Source: a virus
IMG/VR virus record: IMGVR_UViG_3300046012_000791
Coordinates: 1 to 32,643 of that record
DNA: 32,643 nt
Direction: 5' to 3' (one strand)
Position numbers and translations under genes: made by a program
Shown here: positions 2,108 through 23,195 of the stretch, piece by piece
Numbering within the stretch: the first letter of the stretch is position 1
Layout of the letters: each line of letters opens with the position of its first letter
The notes under the pieces: generated by a model
Told to the model about the DNA's origin: nothing
What the model saw: the letters and a program-made list of their open reading frames with translations, nothing else
Database searches by the model: none

Positions 2108-2988
2108 AGCGCGTTCCAGGGCAGTAATTCACTGATAGCCAGGGCTGCCTGCTGGGGGACCACGCCGTTGCCCAGCGCGTGAATCTGCTCCTCCCAGGAC
2201 AGGCCGGGAACACCCGTTACCCATCCGGCCGGCAATCCCATCAGCCACTCCACGAAGCGGGGGCTGGTGTAGGGCTCACCGGCTCCGGATGGGATAAGAG
2301 GGAAAGGGGCAGTAAAGCCGGTGATCCCTTCCCATCTCCAGACCGCATTCCCGTAAGGCCCCCAGAAGCTGCCTTTGCCAGCTCGTACAATTCGCTGGCT
2401 AAGTATTTCCCGTGCTTCCCCTCTCTCTGCGAGGGAGTACGAGCGCGCGTCCTGAATTCTGCGGGCGAGGCCCGGGGAGTCGGGAGCAACTGCGGTGAGG
2501 AAGATCCTCTCGCGCTGATGAGGCGCGCCGGCATCGGATGCACGGAACACCCCGTATGATCCCACGTACCCGATGCGGGAAAGGGAGGATAGAACACGGT
2601 AGAACACCTTTCCCTCATTACCGTAACGCAGGGCAGCCACGTTCTCAAATATCAGCAAGCCGGGCCTGGCTGGCATTTCCTCCACCAGGCGCACGATCTC
2701 ATCAAAAAGATACCGCTCATCCTCCAGCCCCCTGTGGTGCCCCAGCGAGGAGAACGGCTGGCAGGGGAAGCCAGCCGCCAGCACGTTGACAAATGGCAGT
2801 TCGTCGCCTTTGACAGCTGTGATGTCACCTATATTAGGGACGCTGGGATGGTGATGGGCGAGGATGCGGGATACGGCCGGGTTATTATCAGCAACATATT
2901 CCAGCCGGGTCCGGCCGAATACGCGCTCGATCCCCATCTCCAGGCCCCCGTAGCCAGAACAGAGGGAACCGACCCGTATCCGTCGCAT
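2104..2988 (-). CDS. DNA cytosine-5 methyltransferase
   Basis: 294 residues with the ordered motifs of C5-cytosine methyltransferases. Motif I is GSLCSGYGGLEMGIE (residues 7-21, AdoMet binding), motif IV GFPCQPFSSLG carries the catalytic Cys, motif VI is FENVAAL, motif VIII-like GAPHQRERIF, and motif X ALGNGVVPQQAA sits near the C-terminus. It transfers a methyl group from AdoMet to C5 of cytosine in DNA. No restriction partner is obvious next to it, so an orphan phage enzyme that protects against host restriction is the simplest reading (inference). The target-recognition region between motifs VIII and IX is short. The ATG overlaps the preceding stop (TGATG). Confidence 0.93.
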   Translation of the reverse strand: MRRIRVGSLCSGYGGLEMGIERVFGRTRLEYVADNNPAVSRILAHHHPSVPNIGDITAVKGDELPFVNVLAAGFPCQPFSSLGHHRGLEDERYLFDEIVRLVEEMPARPGLLIFENVAALRYGNEGKVFYRVLSSLSRIGYVGSYGVFRASDAGAPHQRERIFLTAVAPDSPGLARRIQDARSYSLAERGEAREILSQRIVRAGKGSFWGPYGNAVWRWEGITGFTAPFPLIPSGAGEPYTSPRFVEWLMGLPAGWVTGVPGLSWEEQIHALGNGVVPQQAALAISELLPWNAL

Positions 2989-3170
2989 CAGTATTTGTGC
3001 AATTCCTCGAAATAATTCACATTATTTGCCCAGTCGAAGTACGCCTTCGCCGTCTCCGCACTGGGGAAATCCTCACCAAGAAGAATCTTCTTGCCGTAGA
3101 CGGTGATAACCGCACCCCAGGTGCCGTCCAGATTGGGGTACACACCGGCTGTCTGATCAACGTACGCCAT
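2988..3170 (-). CDS. Small unknown protein
   Basis: 60 residues with alternating strand-like segments (GTWGAVITVYGKKILLGEDF) followed by a helix (SAETAKAYFDWANNV). This resembles small beta-beta-alpha phage proteins, but no family is recognised. The start ATG has AGGGAAAA about ten bases upstream. The stop overlaps the start of the methyltransferase gene. Confidence 0.7.
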   Translation of the reverse strand: MAYVDQTAGVYPNLDGTWGAVITVYGKKILLGEDFPSAETAKAYFDWANNVNYFEELHKY

Positions 3171-5081: not shown

Positions 5082-5350
5082 CGTTTCCTTATTGCCTTCC
5101 GTGTGATGGGTTCCGTGCCGCCCCAGACGCCATCAGCGCAATCGTTAGCAAGAGCAAAGATCAGGCATTCATCGCGCACTGGGCATAACACGCCGTCATC
5201 GGTCCCGTTGCAGAAGTCCACAGCCGGGCTGTAGTCCGTTTCGTCAAAAAACGGGTCGTATCCCCTGCCCGGGATAACTCCCCGGCATTTCGCGTGACGC
5301 CATCCCTGAGGAGGGCTGACATGCAGGGCAGGGATGGAGGAATCACTCAT
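4949..5350 (-). CDS. WhiB-family regulator
   Basis: 133 residues. C22, DPFF (32-35), C47, C56-PVR and C62 followed by GVWGG (74-78) and a basic tail (KAIRKRW) define a WhiB-like Fe-S protein. These are small [4Fe-4S] regulators, unique to actinobacteria and their phages, that bind the principal sigma factor. The spacing between the second and third Cys is eight residues instead of the usual two, so a six-residue insertion sits in the cluster-binding core; C71 is an extra Cys. The tail after residue 95 is longer than in many host WhiB proteins. The start overlaps the deaminase stop (ATGA). Phage WhiB proteins can repress host whiB genes; here this is inference. Confidence 0.9.
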   Translation of the reverse strand: MSDSSIPALHVSPPQGWRHAKCRGVIPGRGYDPFFDETDYSPAVDFCNGTDDGVLCPVRDECLIFALANDCADGVWGGTEPITRKAIRKRWPTRMRNRGQPVRPEWKWMDRATALAGMDEEKLRREMEEAGTG

Positions 5351-5763
5351 GATGGGTACACCACCCTGGTGATACCGACCCCGGCGATCAGCTTGCGGCA
5401 GCCATCACAGGGCTCCCGGGTTGTGTACAAGGTCGCTCCCACGCACCTGGCGTAATCCGCATACAGCAGTGCGTTGGCCTCGGCGTGGATGGCAATGCAC
5501 GCACCCGGGCCGGTGTCGTAGGAGGACCCCGGCTCAGCACCGGATTCAGCGCGTGGGCAGTGGCCTTCCAGACAGGAAGGCCGCCCGGCCGCAGCGCCGT
5601 TGTAGCCGGTTGCAACTATCCGGTGATCCCTGACGATGATTGCCCCTACCCGGGCCCGTCTGCATTCCCCCCGGGTGGAAACGGTGTACGCAATATTAGT
5701 GAAATACATGTCCCAGTCCGGCCGGGCGTATTCCCAGGTGCTACTGCTGGTTTCCGTCAGCAC
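5347..5763 (-). CDS. Deoxycytidylate (dCMP) deaminase family protein
   Basis: 138 residues with the zinc site of the cytidine/deoxycytidylate deaminase fold: HAE at 93-95 (His ligand, catalytic Glu) and PCDGC at 118-122 (two Cys ligands). An N-terminal extra Cys/His set (GEC, SCLEGHC) resembles the second zinc site of dCMP deaminases. It converts dCMP to dUMP, feeding thymidylate synthesis during phage DNA replication. The GTG start has GAGG four bases upstream and overlaps the preceding nuclease by 23 bases. Confidence 0.88.
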   Translation of the reverse strand: MLTETSSSTWEYARPDWDMYFTNIAYTVSTRGECRRARVGAIIVRDHRIVATGYNGAAAGRPSCLEGHCPRAESGAEPGSSYDTGPGACIAIHAEANALLYADYARCVGATLYTTREPCDGCRKLIAGVGITRVVYPS

Positions 5764-6210: not shown

Positions 6211-6407
6211 TCATCCTCTTCCAGAATGGCCAGCTGAACAAGGGACTCATACGGCAGGGCCAGGCGCTCGCCTTCCAGCTGAACGAACTCAGCTGTCACC
6301 TCGTCCGGCACCCATTCCGAGCCGGTCACCTCCACGATGGCGCCGGTTAACGGGTGGATAATCCTGTCCCCCGGCTTTAAATCCCGTGCCCAGATGAGAT
6401 CCATCAT
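6207..6407 (-). CDS. Small beta-rich unknown protein
   Basis: 66 residues with MMDLIWARDLKPGDRIIHPLTGAIVEVTGSEW. This is a small beta-barrel-like pattern in which KPGD-R-I and a following turn resemble SH3- or Hint-like strands. It is acidic at the C-terminus. The first ATG overlaps the recA stop, and GGAGG sits just upstream within the end of recA. Function unknown. Confidence 0.7.
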   Translation of the reverse strand: MMDLIWARDLKPGDRIIHPLTGAIVEVTGSEWVPDEVTAEFVQLEGERLALPYESLVQLAILEEDE

Positions 6408-7465
6408 TCCTCCGTGAAAATCCTCCGTGGGTCTGCGGCAGCAGCGAGGATCTGCGCGCGCAGGTCAGTCCTCAGCTCCATTTCGGCCAGTACATCAGCC
6501 TGCATAGCCGCCTTCCCCTGCCATTTACGGCCATCGAAGGTGTACCACCCGGTGCCACGGATGACACCGAATTCGATTCCCAGACGGACATACTCCTTAC
6601 CGAGATCATAGTCCCCACGCCGGAAACCACGGACAGGCGCGTCCCGGAAATAGAAATCGACAGCTGCTACCTGCTGGGGAGGTGCTGCCTTGTTCTTCAG
6701 CGTGGTCATCTTGATGGACTGCCCGACCTTCACCGGCCCGCCCGTGATGGAGGGCCACTTCTCGGTGAGCCACTCATCACGCGCCAGGCGCAAGCGCACG
6801 AAGTACGCGAAATCCTTGCCGTGCCCGCCGGGTGAGGTCTGCGGGGTCCCGGCCGGGGACCAGCCGCCGATCTTATCCCGGAACTGGTTGATAATCAGCC
6901 CGATGAAAGGCCGCTCAGTACCGTCCGAGGCGCGCTGTGAGGCCGCTCCTGCCTTGCGCCAGAACTTGTTGAACAGCTTGGCACCCAGGGCCACGGAAAA
7001 CTCGTCCATGGCCTTCTCAGCCTCTTCATCAGGAAGCAGGGCCGGGTAGGAGTCCAGGGCAATGCAGTCAAACGCCCGGGATTCAGCGCTCTGGATCACC
7101 AGCTCCAGGGCCAGCTCCATCTTCTGGGTGCGCACCAGTTCCACCCGGTCGTTATCCACACCCAGCGCGCGTGCCTGGTCACTGTCAAAATGCTCCCCGG
7201 CCACCCACAGCGTGGTGAAGGACGGGTCCAGGCGCTGGTTGGCAGCGATGGTCTTGAGCAGGATCGCCGTCTTGCCGGCCGACTCGTTGCCGATGATCTC
7301 TGACCACTGATTGCCGGGCCAGCCCCCTCCCAGGATCACGTCCAGGGACAGGGAGCCGGTGGTGAACTTCGGGGGAACGACCATCTCGCTGGCCGTTACC
7401 AGGGTATGGGGGCCCAGGTGCTTGTTTAACCGGGCCTTCAGCTCGTCTAAGGTTTCAGTGGGCAC
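6404..7465 (-). CDS. recA: RecA-like recombinase
   Basis: 353 residues, close to the length of bacterial RecA. FTTGSLSLDVILGGGWPG (34-51) leads into a Walker A GNESAGKT (59-66). A Walker-B-like strand CIALDSYPALLPD lies around 134-146, and the L2-like region INQFRDKIGGW...TSPGGHGKDFAYFVRLRL around 193-230. It forms filaments on ssDNA and promotes strand exchange; in a phage it would drive recombination-dependent replication and repair. The GTG start has GAGG six bases upstream and overlaps the preceding gene by 11 bases. It lacks the long acidic RecA tail and is diverged from host RecA, so it looks phage-adapted. Confidence 0.88.
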   Translation of the reverse strand: MPTETLDELKARLNKHLGPHTLVTASEMVVPPKFTTGSLSLDVILGGGWPGNQWSEIIGNESAGKTAILLKTIAANQRLDPSFTTLWVAGEHFDSDQARALGVDNDRVELVRTQKMELALELVIQSAESRAFDCIALDSYPALLPDEEAEKAMDEFSVALGAKLFNKFWRKAGAASQRASDGTERPFIGLIINQFRDKIGGWSPAGTPQTSPGGHGKDFAYFVRLRLARDEWLTEKWPSITGGPVKVGQSIKMTTLKNKAAPPQQVAAVDFYFRDAPVRGFRRGDYDLGKEYVRLGIEFGVIRGTGWYTFDGRKWQGKAAMQADVLAEMELRTDLRAQILAAAADPRRIFTEE

Positions 7466-8150: not shown

Positions 8151-10160
8151 CTATTTGGCTTCGCTCCAGCGATCTGCGGTATTGACCTCGATGGACAGGG
8201 GGACGCGCACCAGGTCCTGCATCGCCAGGCCGGTCATGGCCTCACGCAGGATATCTTCTGCCAGCTCCGTCTTGCTGTCGGGTGCGGACAGCACGATCTC
8301 GTCGTGGACGGTCATGAGCATCTTGATGTCCTCACCCCTGCGAGGATCATTGTACGCCCGGATCATTGCCAGTTTCTGGAGGTCAGCGGCACTTCCCTGG
8401 ATCAGGGAATTAAAGCACTGGCGCTCAGCCGGCATACGGTACTTGTCGTCAGGGGACAGCAAATCCAGGATGCGCCGCTTGCGTCCCAGGAGCGTCGTCA
8501 GGCAGGGGTAAGGCTGCGCCTTGCGGGTATTGCGCAGCAGGGCCTGCCGGTAGCCGTAGACCTCGGGGAAGCGCCGCTTGTGCTCGTTCAGGATCTCGCG
8601 CGCCTGCGTGTCGCTGACCTTGGCCATTGCCGCTACTTTCTTGACGCCGGCGCCGTAGACCGTGGCGAAACCCAGGGTCTTGCCCAGATCCTGGCGCTCG
8701 TCCTTGGTGACCTCCTCCTGGCTCTTGCCCAGCACCATCGCAGCAGTCATCCGGTGCGGGTCACCGCCAGCGTGGAAAGTGTCGAACAGCGCGCCGTAGC
8801 CGATGTAATGCGCCAGCACCACCAGCTCGATCTGGGCGAAGTCAGCAACGACCAGCTGATGCCCGGGCTCAGAGATGAACAGGCCCCGGATGGTCCGGCC
8901 CAGATCAGAGGAAGGACGTGGGATGTTCTGGAGGTTGGGCTCCCGGCAGGAGAAGCGACCAGTCTTGGTGCCGTACTGCACGAAGTCAGCGTGAATACGG
9001 CCGTCATAAATACGGCGTGGCTTTCCCGGGTTATCCGGATCGCCCAGATAGCCGATGATATACGTGCCCAGGATCTTGAAAGTCTCCTGGTACGCCAGGA
9101 TGGCGGCAGCTAACGGGTTGCTGTAATTCTCCTGGAGCGCTTCCTCATCAGTGGAGAAGGAATAGACGTCGGGCTTAAAGCCCTTGGGGTCCTCATCCTT
9201 CTTTTTGCGCGCGCTCTTGGTCAGCCGGGTGGTTTTCAGTCCCTGGCCGCCCTCAGATTTAGGCCCGTACAGCAGCTTCTGCTTCTGCGGGGTGGAATTC
9301 AGGTTGAACTGAAGCGGTTTGGTGTTCCTGCCCGCAGCCGTGAACACGTCAAATTTCAGGTTCTCCACCCGCTGGCCCAGCCTGGCCTTCTGGGTGCGCA
9401 TCTCCTCTTCGTCCACCAGCGCGCCGGTCAGGCGCATGTTCACCATCACCGGAAGCAGCTCGTGCTCGATCCGGTGGATATCCTCCAGGCCGTCAGCCTC
9501 GATCTGGGGGGAAAATCTCCGGTACAGCAGCCAGCAGAGCCGGGCGTCCAGGTAGGAGTACAGCGCAACCTTGGAGAACGGGTAGCTCTCCACGCAGGTG
9601 CCGATTTCCTCGTCATCATAACTGAAATGAAAGATATCCCTGACAAGGTATTTCAGGCCGAACCGGCGCCGGTTCTCATCCAGCAGCCACGCGTCGATGA
9701 TGGTGTCCTCATACGGCGCGCAAGGGACGCACCCGTAGTACTTTTTCAGGGCTGCAAAGTCAAAAGACGCGCCGTGGGCAATCTTGATGATGGCCGGGCT
9801 GAAAAATAACGGCTCCAGGACACGGAACACCGTCTCGGGATACAGCTGCACCGGGGCCGGCTCGTACACCGGCACCGATTTATTGTAGAATTTCCCGGCT
9901 TTGGTACTGTCATCCCCGTAAGGGGTCGGGATTTTGTCCATGCGCACAACACGGTCCCCGATGGGATGACCGAAAGGAATGGCCACAGCCATCCCGTCCG
10001 TGGCCAAGGACAGCCAGGACAAGCTATTGAGGTGGGGGACGCCCCGGTTCTCCCCCTGAGCCTCAGTGTCAAAAGCAAATGCCGGGCGCGCCAGAAAATA
10101 ATCCCGTACCTCGCGCAGATGTTCCTCGGTGAGAACAATACTGGGGGAAAGACCCGTCAT
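8151..10160 (-). CDS. Family A DNA polymerase with 3'-5' exonuclease
   Basis: 669 residues. An N-terminal exonuclease domain is present: FDTE at 30-33, AHGASFD as motif II, YSYLD as motif III. The polymerase follows: motif A VVADFAQIELVVLAH, motif B RQDLGKTLGFATVYG, motif C MTVHDEIVLS near residue 616. No 5' nuclease domain is present, as is usual for phage replicative enzymes. Two signature positions differ from the common form: the motif-A Arg (DYSQIELR) is Val, and the motif-II Asn is Gly. Phe in motif B is the residue that usually excludes dideoxynucleotides. It is the likely replicative polymerase. The ATG overlaps the preceding stop (ATGA); the nearest GGAG is 13 bases away, so translation is probably coupled. 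Confidence 0.93.
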   Translation of the reverse strand: MTGLSPSIVLTEEHLREVRDYFLARPAFAFDTEAQGENRGVPHLNSLSWLSLATDGMAVAIPFGHPIGDRVVRMDKIPTPYGDDSTKAGKFYNKSVPVYEPAPVQLYPETVFRVLEPLFFSPAIIKIAHGASFDFAALKKYYGCVPCAPYEDTIIDAWLLDENRRRFGLKYLVRDIFHFSYDDEEIGTCVESYPFSKVALYSYLDARLCWLLYRRFSPQIEADGLEDIHRIEHELLPVMVNMRLTGALVDEEEMRTQKARLGQRVENLKFDVFTAAGRNTKPLQFNLNSTPQKQKLLYGPKSEGGQGLKTTRLTKSARKKKDEDPKGFKPDVYSFSTDEEALQENYSNPLAAAILAYQETFKILGTYIIGYLGDPDNPGKPRRIYDGRIHADFVQYGTKTGRFSCREPNLQNIPRPSSDLGRTIRGLFISEPGHQLVVADFAQIELVVLAHYIGYGALFDTFHAGGDPHRMTAAMVLGKSQEEVTKDERQDLGKTLGFATVYGAGVKKVAAMAKVSDTQAREILNEHKRRFPEVYGYRQALLRNTRKAQPYPCLTTLLGRKRRILDLLSPDDKYRMPAERQCFNSLIQGSAADLQKLAMIRAYNDPRRGEDIKMLMTVHDEIVLSAPDSKTELAEDILREAMTGLAMQDLVRVPLSIEVNTADRWSEAK

Positions 10161-20754: not shown

Positions 20755-20872
20755 ACTGCTTAGCTGTCCAGTCCTTGCACTTAGAGCACCAGCCGAACAG
20801 CGCGTTCCTGTATTTTGTTTCTTTTCTGCCGCATCGTGGGCAGATGAAGGAGCCGATGAGCAATTTACTCAT
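20753..20872 (-). CDS. 39-residue zinc-ribbon protein
   Basis: Reads MSKLLIGSFICPRCGRKETK and continues through WCSKCKDWTAKQ: a CPxC plus CxxC pair about 16 residues apart, enough for one zinc. The ATG overlaps the preceding stop region by eight bases (GATGAGTAA). The stop is followed at once by the terminator stem. Function unknown. Confidence 0.65.
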   Translation of the reverse strand: MSKLLIGSFICPRCGRKETKYRNALFGWCSKCKDWTAKQ

Positions 20873-21722
20873 CAATAAGCCATCCGGCTTCCTTCAGGTC
20901 AGTGATCTGCGCATCGGTCAGCTCGACCAGGCGCAGGCCCGAGGCCAGCCGCCCCGGCTTGCGGGGACGGTGCATGCCCAGCTCGTCCACGGTGTAGCGC
21001 CGGGTCGGGGCAGGGGGATCGGGCTCAGAAACCCAGGGAGTGCTGTCATCCTGGCCCTCGGGCTCCTCCGGCAGCTCAGCGATATCCGCCGGCTGCGTCA
21101 TGGCAGCGGGGGGCGCGCCGGGAACACCGGCCTGGGACGGCGCCAGGACGGGCTTGTTGACGCCGGGGACGAGTCCTGCCACAGCCAGTTCCTCCCTGAT
21201 CAGGGCACGGATGATGCTTTCCAGCGTAGCACCGGGCCCGGTGATAGCCGGGGCAGCAGGTGCGGCCTCCGGTTCCTGCCGGGGCACGCCCCGCAGCCGT
21301 GGGACGGAGACTGCGGGCTCGGGCTCGGGGTCCGGCTCGCGCCAGGTCAGCTCGATCATCCCGTTGCGCAGATCCAGCACCCGGATGCCGGCCTGAACTG
21401 CTTCTTTCACCAGCTCCCCGTCCTGCTCCGGGTCGTGCAGCAGCACCAGGGTGGTGTCGTAGTCCTGCTTCCTGTAATTCAGCAGGGACAGCAGGACATC
21501 ACTGGCCTCTTCCAGGTCATCAGCGTCGTACTCGGACCTGATCCAGTCCCGGATCAGCCGCATGCCCCGGTCCTCGGCGCGCCCCTTGGAGATCCCGGCC
21601 GGGATCACGAACAGGCACTCCTCGGGCATGGAATCCGACAAGTTCGCGCTGATGAACGTGGCCTGGGCCTGCTCGACGGAAGCCGAGCCGGCGAACCCGT
21701 AGACCGGCAAGTTGTCTCCCAT
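20865..21722 (-). CDS. Unknown phage protein with Rossmann-like N-terminal half
   Basis: 285 residues. Residues 1-130 alternate strands and helices (LPVYGFAGSASVEQAQATFI, ECLFVIPAGISKGRAEDRGMRLIRDWI, YDTTLVLLHDP, VKEAVQAGIRVLDLRNG), suggesting a Rossmann-type nucleotide-binding fold. The middle is a Pro/Glu/Ala-rich linker with one helix (LESIIRALIREELAV). The last 40 residues (YTVDELGMHRP ... LTDAQITDLKEAGWLIDE) look like a small helical domain. ATG with AGGGGAAA just upstream, and its own promoter. No known family. Confidence 0.72.
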   Translation of the reverse strand: MGDNLPVYGFAGSASVEQAQATFISANLSDSMPEECLFVIPAGISKGRAEDRGMRLIRDWIRSEYDADDLEEASDVLLSLLNYRKQDYDTTLVLLHDPEQDGELVKEAVQAGIRVLDLRNGMIELTWREPDPEPEPAVSVPRLRGVPRQEPEAAPAAPAITGPGATLESIIRALIREELAVAGLVPGVNKPVLAPSQAGVPGAPPAAMTQPADIAELPEEPEGQDDSTPWVSEPDPPAPTRRYTVDELGMHRPRKPGRLASGLRLVELTDAQITDLKEAGWLIDE

Positions 21723-21789: not shown

Positions 21790-21834
21790 AAAAGCGGGAG
21801 CCCCCCGGCCACTACCCGTGCCTGGGGGGCTCCC
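21790..21834 (-). terminator. Terminator after the tRNA-like region
   Basis: GGGAGCCCCCC and GGGGGGCTCCC form an 11-bp stem, followed on the minus strand by GCTTTTCC. It closes the transcript that carries 22241-23002 and the tRNA-like segments. Confidence 0.75.
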
Positions 21835-21896: not shown

Positions 21897-21945
21897 ACGC
21901 CATCTTCTCAGCGGCAGTGCGTAAGGCACAGGATAACTTGCTAGA

Positions 21946-22020
21946 CCGGACGCTTTTCCGTTAAGCCACCCCGGCGCGAGAGCCGGGGGCAGGAATCGAA
22001 CCTGCAATCTTCCGAACGGT
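21946..22020 (-). tRNA. tRNA-like unit 2, 3' half before 5' half
   Basis: Read on the minus strand, a 3' half comes first: TCGGA (anticodon stem), AGATT, GCAGG-TTCGATT-CCTGC (T arm) and CCCCGGC-T (acceptor, 21988-21981). Four bases later comes a 5' half: GCCGGGG (acceptor, perfect 7-bp complement), TG, GCTT-AACGGAA-AAGC (D arm), G, TCCGG (anticodon stem). Sequences just outside the unit, GCACAGGA (22021-22028) and TCCTGTGC (21926-21933), are exactly complementary. No CCA is encoded and I cannot place an anticodon with U33, so specificity is left open. U at the discriminator position is seen. Confidence 0.5.
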
Positions 22021-22096
22021 TCCTGTGCTGGGCAGACCTGCGCGCCAGATGACCGTATGCTGATGCTAGAGCGAGATGAACAATCCTGATCCCGGC

Positions 22097-22189
22097 CTGG
22101 ATGCTCTGCCAATGAGCTACCCCGGCGAGTACGGGCCCAAAGGCCCAGAGCCGAGGGAAGGAATCGAACCTTCTGCCTTCCGGTGATGT
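22097..22189 (-). tRNA. tRNA-like unit 1, 3' half before 5' half
   Basis: The 3' half is CCGGA (anticodon stem), AGGCA, GAAGG-TTCGATT-CCTTC (T arm), CCTCGGC-T (acceptor, 22156-22149). After 22 bases, which include GGGCC...GGCCC pairing, comes a 5' half GCCGGGG (22126-22120), TA, GCTC-ATTGGCA-GAGC (D arm), A, TCCAG. The acceptor pairs with one G-U; the anticodon stem has one A-C mismatch. Flanking CCGGC (22194-22190) and GCCGG (22096-22092) can pair. A plain tRNA is not possible here because no 5' acceptor strand precedes this T arm. The alternative is a broken tandem tRNA array. Confidence 0.45.
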
Positions 22190-22240
22190 GCCGGTAAAAC
22201 GGTGACAACGATGCTGATGCTGTGTGCTCTGCGCACCAGT

Positions 22241-23002
22241 CTACCGGGTGGGGAGGTCCCCGTCAATCAGGAAACCGAGCAGCAGCGCCGACTCGCTGAA
22301 CTCCTCCACCGGGATGGAGTTAGCTGCGATACGCGCCGCCCGGACTGCCTCCAGGAGCTTCGCGCCCCGGTCGATCATCGCCTGGCGCTCACCGTGCTTC
22401 ATCGCGCCCGTGTAGTCCGTGTGGGTCCAGGTACCGATCGGGACGTCGGTGGAGTGCTGGGCCAGCAGGGTGGACTGGTGCCGGTCAGTGGCAGGCGCGA
22501 TCTCGTAGTGCACGGCCTTGCCGTGGCGCTGGGTCTGCACCGGCACGCCGGCCGAGACTCCCTCGCGCTCGGTGTCGGACCACACCACTCCCAGGGGGCG
22601 CGTGGGGATCGCCTTGAGCAGGGAGATGAAGTTGGTGAGCTGGTGCTCCAGGAACAGCAGGTGAGTGACCGGGACCTGGCCCAGCACGGTCACGCCGTTC
22701 ACTACCACGTCACCCCGGGCCACGGTGTTGCCCTCGTCCCGGGTGCGGTTGATGTCCCACATCCTCGCCCACAGCTCACGCGCCCTGACCAGCTCATCAG
22801 CTGCGACGTGCTGGACCTCGACCTTCTGCTCGGGCAGCCGCAGGCCGTTCTCCTCATCGTCTGGCTTGTAGGTCTTGAGGAACCCGTGATAGGACGCGCC
22901 ATTCTGGGCCTGCGCGCCCTGGTAGATCTTGTTGATCTGGGTCTGGTTGTCCTTGGTCACGGCTGCCGAGATACCCACGGCAGTGGCCATGATGATAGAC
23001 AC
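22241..23002 (-). CDS. Unknown phage protein
   Basis: 253 residues from GTG 23002 (AAGGAG six bases upstream); a second in-frame ATG lies at 22990. N-terminal VSIIMATAVGISAAVTKDNQ is helix-like. The middle has VEVQHVAADELVRARELWARMWDINR, VVNGVTVLGQVPVTHLLFLEHQLTNFISLLKAIPT, WSDTEREGVSAGVPVQTQRHGK, and a C-terminal helix pair (RQAMIDRGAKLLEAVRAARIAANSIPVEEFSESALLLGFLIDG). It resembles proteins annotated only as hypothetical in actinophages. Its messenger has a long structured leader, so its level is probably controlled. Confidence 0.78.
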   Translation of the reverse strand: MSIIMATAVGISAAVTKDNQTQINKIYQGAQAQNGASYHGFLKTYKPDDEENGLRLPEQKVEVQHVAADELVRARELWARMWDINRTRDEGNTVARGDVVVNGVTVLGQVPVTHLLFLEHQLTNFISLLKAIPTRPLGVVWSDTEREGVSAGVPVQTQRHGKAVHYEIAPATDRHQSTLLAQHSTDVPIGTWTHTDYTGAMKHGERQAMIDRGAKLLEAVRAARIAANSIPVEEFSESALLLGFLIDGDLPTR

Positions 23003-23195
23003 GGCTGACTCCTTCGGTCCTGTGGATGAGCTGCCAAGCATAGCGCAGCCCTGGCCGGGATACCAGCAGGTTTCCCCGTAAGCAGGGGAAACCCCGCCAA
23101 CCGTCAGTAGAAGGAGTCAGGTTGCTACCAGGCACCCGGCCAGGGCGCGCACGCAAAGAAGGGACCAGCCCGAAGGATGATCCCCTCTTCGCTTA
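23003..23195 (-). promoter_or_regulatory. Long structured 5' leader, candidate riboregulator
   Basis: About 190 bases without a gene. In the minus-strand RNA, GCCCTGGCCGGG (23146-23135) pairs with CCCGGCCAGGGC (23059-23048) over 12 bp. Inside this closed loop are an anti-ribosome-site CTGACTCCTTC (23120-23110) and a 9-bp hairpin GGTTTCCCC / GGGGAAACC (23093-23069). The anti-site is an exact 11-base complement of GAAGGAGTCAG (23015-23005), which contains the ribosome site of 22241-23002. The two pairings would form a pseudoknot or compete. Confidence 0.55.

Follow-up and report, generated by a model that had tools for sequence, protein, structure and literature searches.

Two tRNA-like units encoded in tandem on the minus strand of a viral DNA are probably the heads of a single conserved noncoding RNA family that is inherited together with the DUF7873 gene and that would form, independently of Ro60, a tRNA-mimic ribonucleoprotein. 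Judged from sequence, this RNA, for which we found no description, is widespread and lies beside DUF7873 in phages and in hundreds of bacterial genomes.

The window, that is the whole stretch of 32,643 nucleotides analysed (32.6 kb), is a viral record that shows no end repeats and is probably a fragment. Its minus strand carries phage replication and modification genes encoding endonuclease VII, C-5 cytosine methylase, dCMP deaminase, RecA and family A DNA polymerase. On the same strand, positions 21926-22221 read T arm, acceptor 3' strand, loop, acceptor 5' strand and D arm, twice in a row. An earlier note on this DNA had described this permuted order, and each coordinate that it gave holds in the sequence. 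In unit 1 (T arm 22173-22157, D arm 22119-22103), the acceptor 3' strand CCTCGGC (22156-22150) pairs with the acceptor 5' strand GCCGGGG (22126-22120) with one G-U pair, the intervening loop covering 22149-22127. In unit 2 (T arm 22005-21989, D arm 21968-21952), CCCCGGC (21988-21982) pairs with GCCGGGG (21975-21969) at 7/7 positions around the loop TCTCGC. The 11-mer AGCATCAGCAT indeed stands ahead of each unit, at 22221-22211 and 22067-22057; by eye, the first copy lies roughly where relatives have the CTGAAACTGAA motif upstream of unit 1 and the second roughly where they have the linker motif CAGACTCAGCAT. Outside the second head, GCACAGGA (22028-22021) and TCCTGTGC (21933-21926) are exact complements, and a 5-nt/12-nt asymmetric internal loop separates the two continuous helices of this unit. 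The minimum free energy z-scores of the units are weak (-1.3 and -2.1), so that folding energy alone is insufficient to reveal them. A GC-rich hairpin after unit 2 is also present in many relatives; a strict terminator scan of the window did not call it. All features are collected in Table 1.

Table 1. Positions of the DUF7873 gene, the two-headed RNA and accompanying features in the window
Feature	Position	Strand	Evidence
Five replication/modification genes	1700-2107, 2104-2988, 5347-5763, 6404-7465, 8151-10160	minus	
DUF7873 (PF25283) gene, 266-aa ORF	22241-23041	minus	Pfam E 3.5e-49; alignment of relatives; AlphaFold2 pLDDT 92
Candidate sigma-70-like promoter TTGACG-17-TAGACT	22238-22266	minus	consensus scan, weak
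AGAGC, possible 5' strand of unit 1 outer helix (consensus GAGCG)	22226-22230	minus	inferred from alifold of 59 bacterial relatives and window fold
First 11-mer AGCATCAGCAT	22211-22221	minus	sequence; by-eye comparison with relatives
Unit 1, first tRNA-like head and flanks	22071-22204	minus	model R1, 39.8 bits, E 4e-9; order from sequence
Unit 1 T arm and acceptor 3' strand	22150-22173	minus	
Unit 1 acceptor 5' strand and D arm	22103-22126	minus	
GCTCT, possible 3' strand of unit 1 outer helix (consensus CGCTC)	22068-22072	minus	inferred from alifold of 59 bacterial relatives and window fold
Second 11-mer AGCATCAGCAT	22057-22067	minus	sequence; by-eye comparison with relatives
Unit 2, second tRNA-like head and basal helix	21921-22033	minus	full-length match (1-115) to model R1, 77.4 bits, E 5.8e-20
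Unit 2 basal helix, 5' strand GCACAGGA	22021-22028	minus	fixed-position helix test
Unit 2 anticodon-position stem, 3' strand TCGGA	22011-22015	minus	paired-stem test
Unit 2 T arm and acceptor 3' strand	21982-22005	minus	
Unit 2 acceptor 5' strand and D arm	21952-21975	minus	
Unit 2 anticodon-position stem, 5' strand TCCGG	21946-21950	minus	paired-stem test
Unit 2 basal helix, 3' strand TCCTGTGC	21926-21933	minus	fixed-position helix test; covariation
Terminator-like hairpin GGGAGCCCCCC...GGGGGGCTCCC	21796-21834	minus	sequence; relatives

A covariance model, R1, was built from 23 relatives, the window being left out. It matched unit 2 over its full length (77.4 bits, E 6e-20); unit 1 obtained 39.8 bits (E 4e-9). 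Both matches, given by a model that had never seen the window, are far beyond chance. It should be noted that tandem identical tRNA genes reach about 52 bits with R1, a background level that unit 2 exceeds; unit 1 scores below it, is therefore uncertain when taken alone, and owes its assignment to its place beside unit 2. Because the T arm and the acceptor pairing were used in selecting the units of relatives, they are no proof by themselves. By contrast, the stem at the anticodon position (at tRNA spacing, with at most 1 nt between it and the D arm and 3-6 nt between it and the T arm) and the basal helix played no part in this selection. This stem was fully paired in 101/175 distinct units, with 59 different sequences, compared to 10% of the mismatched controls, and the basal helix of unit 2 reached at least 7 bp in 31 of 39 phage loci, with 31 distinct sequences, compared to 8% of the controls. 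In the fixed-position test, the inner/basal helix of unit 1 was no different from the control. For the full structure the covariation score was 0.741, a value to which the selection of units raised the contribution of the T and acceptor pairs, compared to 0.258 after shuffling and about 0.18 after sliding. These comparisons demonstrate, at the level of sequence, a common anatomy maintained by covariation.

The earlier note had taken the units for circularly permuted tRNA genes that would be spliced at the anticodon loop, circularised and opened at the acceptor end to yield working tRNAs. The order is truly permuted and the acceptor stem is paired; among the units of relatives N73 is never C, C74 is found in 85% and 53 of 202 encode an NCCA end, all but the C74 figure being points that we count in favour of tRNA genes; the N73 and C74 figures also count for the tRNA-mimic reading. 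The first units of some cyanophage-type relatives (L028, L065 and L071) further contain an extra hairpin like the anticodon arm of tRNA-Leu(UAA), which the related Pam2 (L030) lacks. However, the window offers no U33, no seven-base anticodon loop and no bulge-helix-bulge; the note had itself named the missing U33 and the unreadable anticodon loop as its weak point, and this was the right clue. A join of the two halves at an anticodon loop is not supported, as the stem continues into an internal loop and the basal helix. The 8-bp outer complement, which had been read as the mark of such a join, is real, conserved and covarying, but it is this basal helix, preceded by the internal loop. In addition, acceptor sequences differ freely from locus to locus. 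We know of no archaeal/eukaryal splicing endonuclease in bacteria. The known permuted tRNA genes are processed by precisely such an enzyme (PMC3978253). We thus consider it very improbable that the units are permuted tRNA genes, and the RNA probably acts as a tRNA mimic and not as a tRNA. The encoded NCCA ends count against a mimic, as a mere mimic has no need of them.

The units could also be what is left of an ordinary array of tandem tRNA genes, or a single tRNA split by an insert. The best Rfam match at its cut-off is indeed tRNA (RF00005, 46.2 bits, with an 85-nt insert), made of the 5' half of unit 1 and the 3' half of unit 2, and R1 gives 52 bits to tandem identical tRNA-Asn genes. Such an ordinary-order model spanning both units requires the halves to pair across units, and this cross pairing reached 6/7 in only 8 of the 69 relatives with tandem units and failed in the 61 others, so that in the window it reflects the coincidence of two similar acceptor stems. 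An intron- or insert-bearing tRNA was rejected on the same count. ARAGORN found no ordinary tRNA in the window, no complete ordinary tRNA was found at this place in close relatives, and the helices are conserved and the gene link is kept across phyla. Remains of tRNA genes are therefore hardly credible as an explanation.

Any search for permuted tRNAs can pick up tandem identical tRNA genes as false positives. Tandem identical tRNA-Asn genes, at 2990-3098 (minus) of L198 and 2604-2712 (plus) of L199, obtained about 52 bits with R1, and weak R1 matches in the genomes G034 and G073 were discarded from the family as tandem tRNA-Asn genes.

The window gene next to the RNA encodes a member of the DUF7873 family (PF25283, 168.2 bits for a cut-off of 27), whose true start, judged by homology, may be an internal ATG near 22990. 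Relatives of this protein were detected in 160 viral contigs and, among bacterial genomes taken one per species, in at least 499 stretches. The best 80 of these bacterial stretches belong mainly to Streptomyces and other Actinomycetota, and also include Armatimonadota, Acidobacteria, Deltaproteobacteria and Herpetosiphon. With R1, the RNA was recognised beside DUF7873 in 59 of the 63 phage loci examined and in 78 of the 80 bacterial ones; two loci, L179 and L189, have the DUF7873 gene and no strong RNA match nearby. A simple detector found at least two units in 52 and one unit in 21 of 80 distinct phage-type loci; in the 80 best bacterial loci, it found two units directly downstream in 59, one in 19, and no match elsewhere. 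Comparison with related phages recovered the same permuted units beside the gene: in the relatives from Arthrobacter, Gordonia, Rhodococcus, Pseudanabaena and Vibrio phages they lie just downstream of DUF7873, mostly as two. In a sample of 79 genomes from one class, DUF7873 was detected in five, strong RNA matches occurred in exactly those five, at most about 350 nt from the gene, and none was found in the other 74. These results demonstrate that the RNA and the gene are linked and co-inherited. No other conserved neighbour was seen in the bacterial loci, and the other gene flanking the RNA in the window (20865-21722) had no relative in the viral contigs or phages searched. Rfam recognised no family at its cut-off in 16 bacterial DUF7873 loci.

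The RNA usually lies 50-300 nt past the DUF7873 stop codon on the same strand, a position suggestive of a cis-acting 3' UTR element stabilising or controlling the DUF7873 messenger. Nevertheless, the RNA is on the opposite strand at one locus (L047) and upstream of the gene at another (L050), and is thus not strictly a 3' UTR element. In the window, the weak promoter-like site immediately ahead of the RNA, which overlaps the 3' end of the DUF7873 gene (1 found compared to 0.3 expected by chance), also argues against such an element, which we regard as quite unlikely.

Two variations of the locus should be mentioned. In two Streptomyces loci (L126 and L127), the head of unit 1 has apparently been lost, as seen from an alignment gap, and the flanking motifs and unit 2 are kept. 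A unit-2-like RNA with a poor basal helix was also detected (58 bits; L197, 2743-2853, minus) in a genome, G094, from which both DUF7873 and TROVE were absent at the thresholds applied; ARAGORN called no tRNA there, and this RNA is possibly a third setting.

In the bacterial Y RNA YrlA, the head imitates the D, T and acceptor arms of a tRNA and binds PNPase, and the Ro60 orthologue Rsr is bound through the basal stem (PMC8394870). At lower stringency, the YrlA model (RF02553) matched unit 2 end to end and unit 1 in part, with 34.1 and 26.6 bits, both below its gathering cut-off of 69; the units of Ro60-carrying phages likewise fall under this cut-off. One or two such units adjoin the Ro60 gene in Ro60-carrying actinophages, and a pattern scan recovered one viral contig with the same layout, two units being directly followed by a TROVE/Ro60 gene. 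The RNA could then be an ordinary Y RNA of Ro60. No TROVE/Ro60 gene was found in the window, where the neighbour is DUF7873; the record being probably a fragment, a Ro60 gene could lie in the unsequenced part of the same phage. However, TROVE/Ro60 was missing from all seven DUF7873 phage records searched whole and TROVE from 4 of 15 bacterial DUF7873 genomes, although other genomes carry both, and most units of Ro60 phages match R1 over the tRNA-like part only or with low scores. An ordinary YrlA is therefore unlikely. In a Ro60 phage contig, a third hairpin RNA (L002, 4795-4910, minus) was observed between two YrlA-like units; it shares the CGGATACTTC motif and has no tRNA-like head.

The AlphaFold2 model of the window DUF7873 protein is confident (pLDDT 92). 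Foldseek comparison of this model with the PDB gave no convincing match (the best, with E 0.03 and TM 0.14, is meaningless), and a sequence profile compared with the PDB gave nothing convincing either. The model resembles a 179-aa protein of a crAss-like phage (BFVD A0A7M1RW91, uncultured phage cr118_1; Foldseek probability 1.00, TM 0.56 by target length). In-frame stops seen in four DUF7873 matches turned out to be merely gene ends. With a net charge of -5 (median -4), the protein is slightly acidic and not basic, and Foldseek recognised no RNA-binding fold in the PDB, so that it is the gene linkage by itself which suggests that DUF7873 binds the RNA. No paper naming DUF7873, and none on a permuted tRNA-like RNA in Streptomyces, was found in the literature covered, which left outside most subscription papers and all bioRxiv preprints.

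We infer the cellular role of the Ro60-independent tRNA mimic as follows. The RNA would be made, be stable and be left unspliced, and the transcript would form a hairpin capped by a tRNA elbow without an anticodon loop, unit 2 having the internal loop and a basal helix of 7-9 bp. DUF7873 would bind perhaps the basal helix, or else the conserved unpaired motifs around it, and the closed acceptor ends and elbows of the heads would attract proteins that handle tRNAs. The particle could serve as a tether, in the way that YrlA links Ro60 with PNPase, or alternatively as a decoy for enzymes attacking or modifying tRNA; in phages, its role during infection might be to protect the tRNA pool or to direct its use. 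To the broader proposal of an unrecognised class of ribonucleoprotein, in which DUF7873 with a new fold and a dedicated two-headed tRNA-mimic RNA would act in tRNA handling or protection, parallel to and independently of Ro60/Y RNA, we give an even chance. If true, there would be a second system of permuted tRNA mimics, independent of Ro60, and permuted tRNA-like units in phages would likely be mimics and not tRNA genes. It would also give a testable function to DUF7873, a family whose structure is predicted with confidence and for which no relative is known, and would provide a genetic handle in laboratory Streptomyces.

Several known systems can be compared with this RNA. Like tmRNA, it is noncoding and would use a tRNA-like domain as a tRNA mimic; unlike tmRNA, the DUF7873-linked RNA is two-headed and gives no tmRNA match at the Rfam cut-off. 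Among the relatives, Gordonia phage Phendrix (L033, 485-1013) has a tmRNA match of 89 bits for a cut-off of 47, at a place where the annotation shown lists no feature, and Pseudanabaena phage PA-SR01 (L028, 5254-5433) has a permuted-tmRNA match of 31.9 bits, below the cut-off of 47. The circularly permuted tRNA genes of algae and Thermofilum pendens similarly have the 3' half first and the intervening sequence at the acceptor end, but they have bulge-helix-bulge junctions and U33 and give a mature tRNA (PMC3978253). The Y RNAs of the Ro60 actinophages (L013, L018 and L020-L027) are also phage-borne, next to or inside tRNA arrays and often in tandem units; they differ in adjoining annotated Ro-like genes and in that most of them match R1 mainly over the head. 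With YrlA (RF02553), the RNA shares the permuted T-acceptor-D head closed by a loop and the basal stem formed by the two ends of the RNA, whereas its partner gene is DUF7873 instead of the TROVE ring protein Rsr/Ro60, its loci usually encode two heads, and the basal sequences differ.
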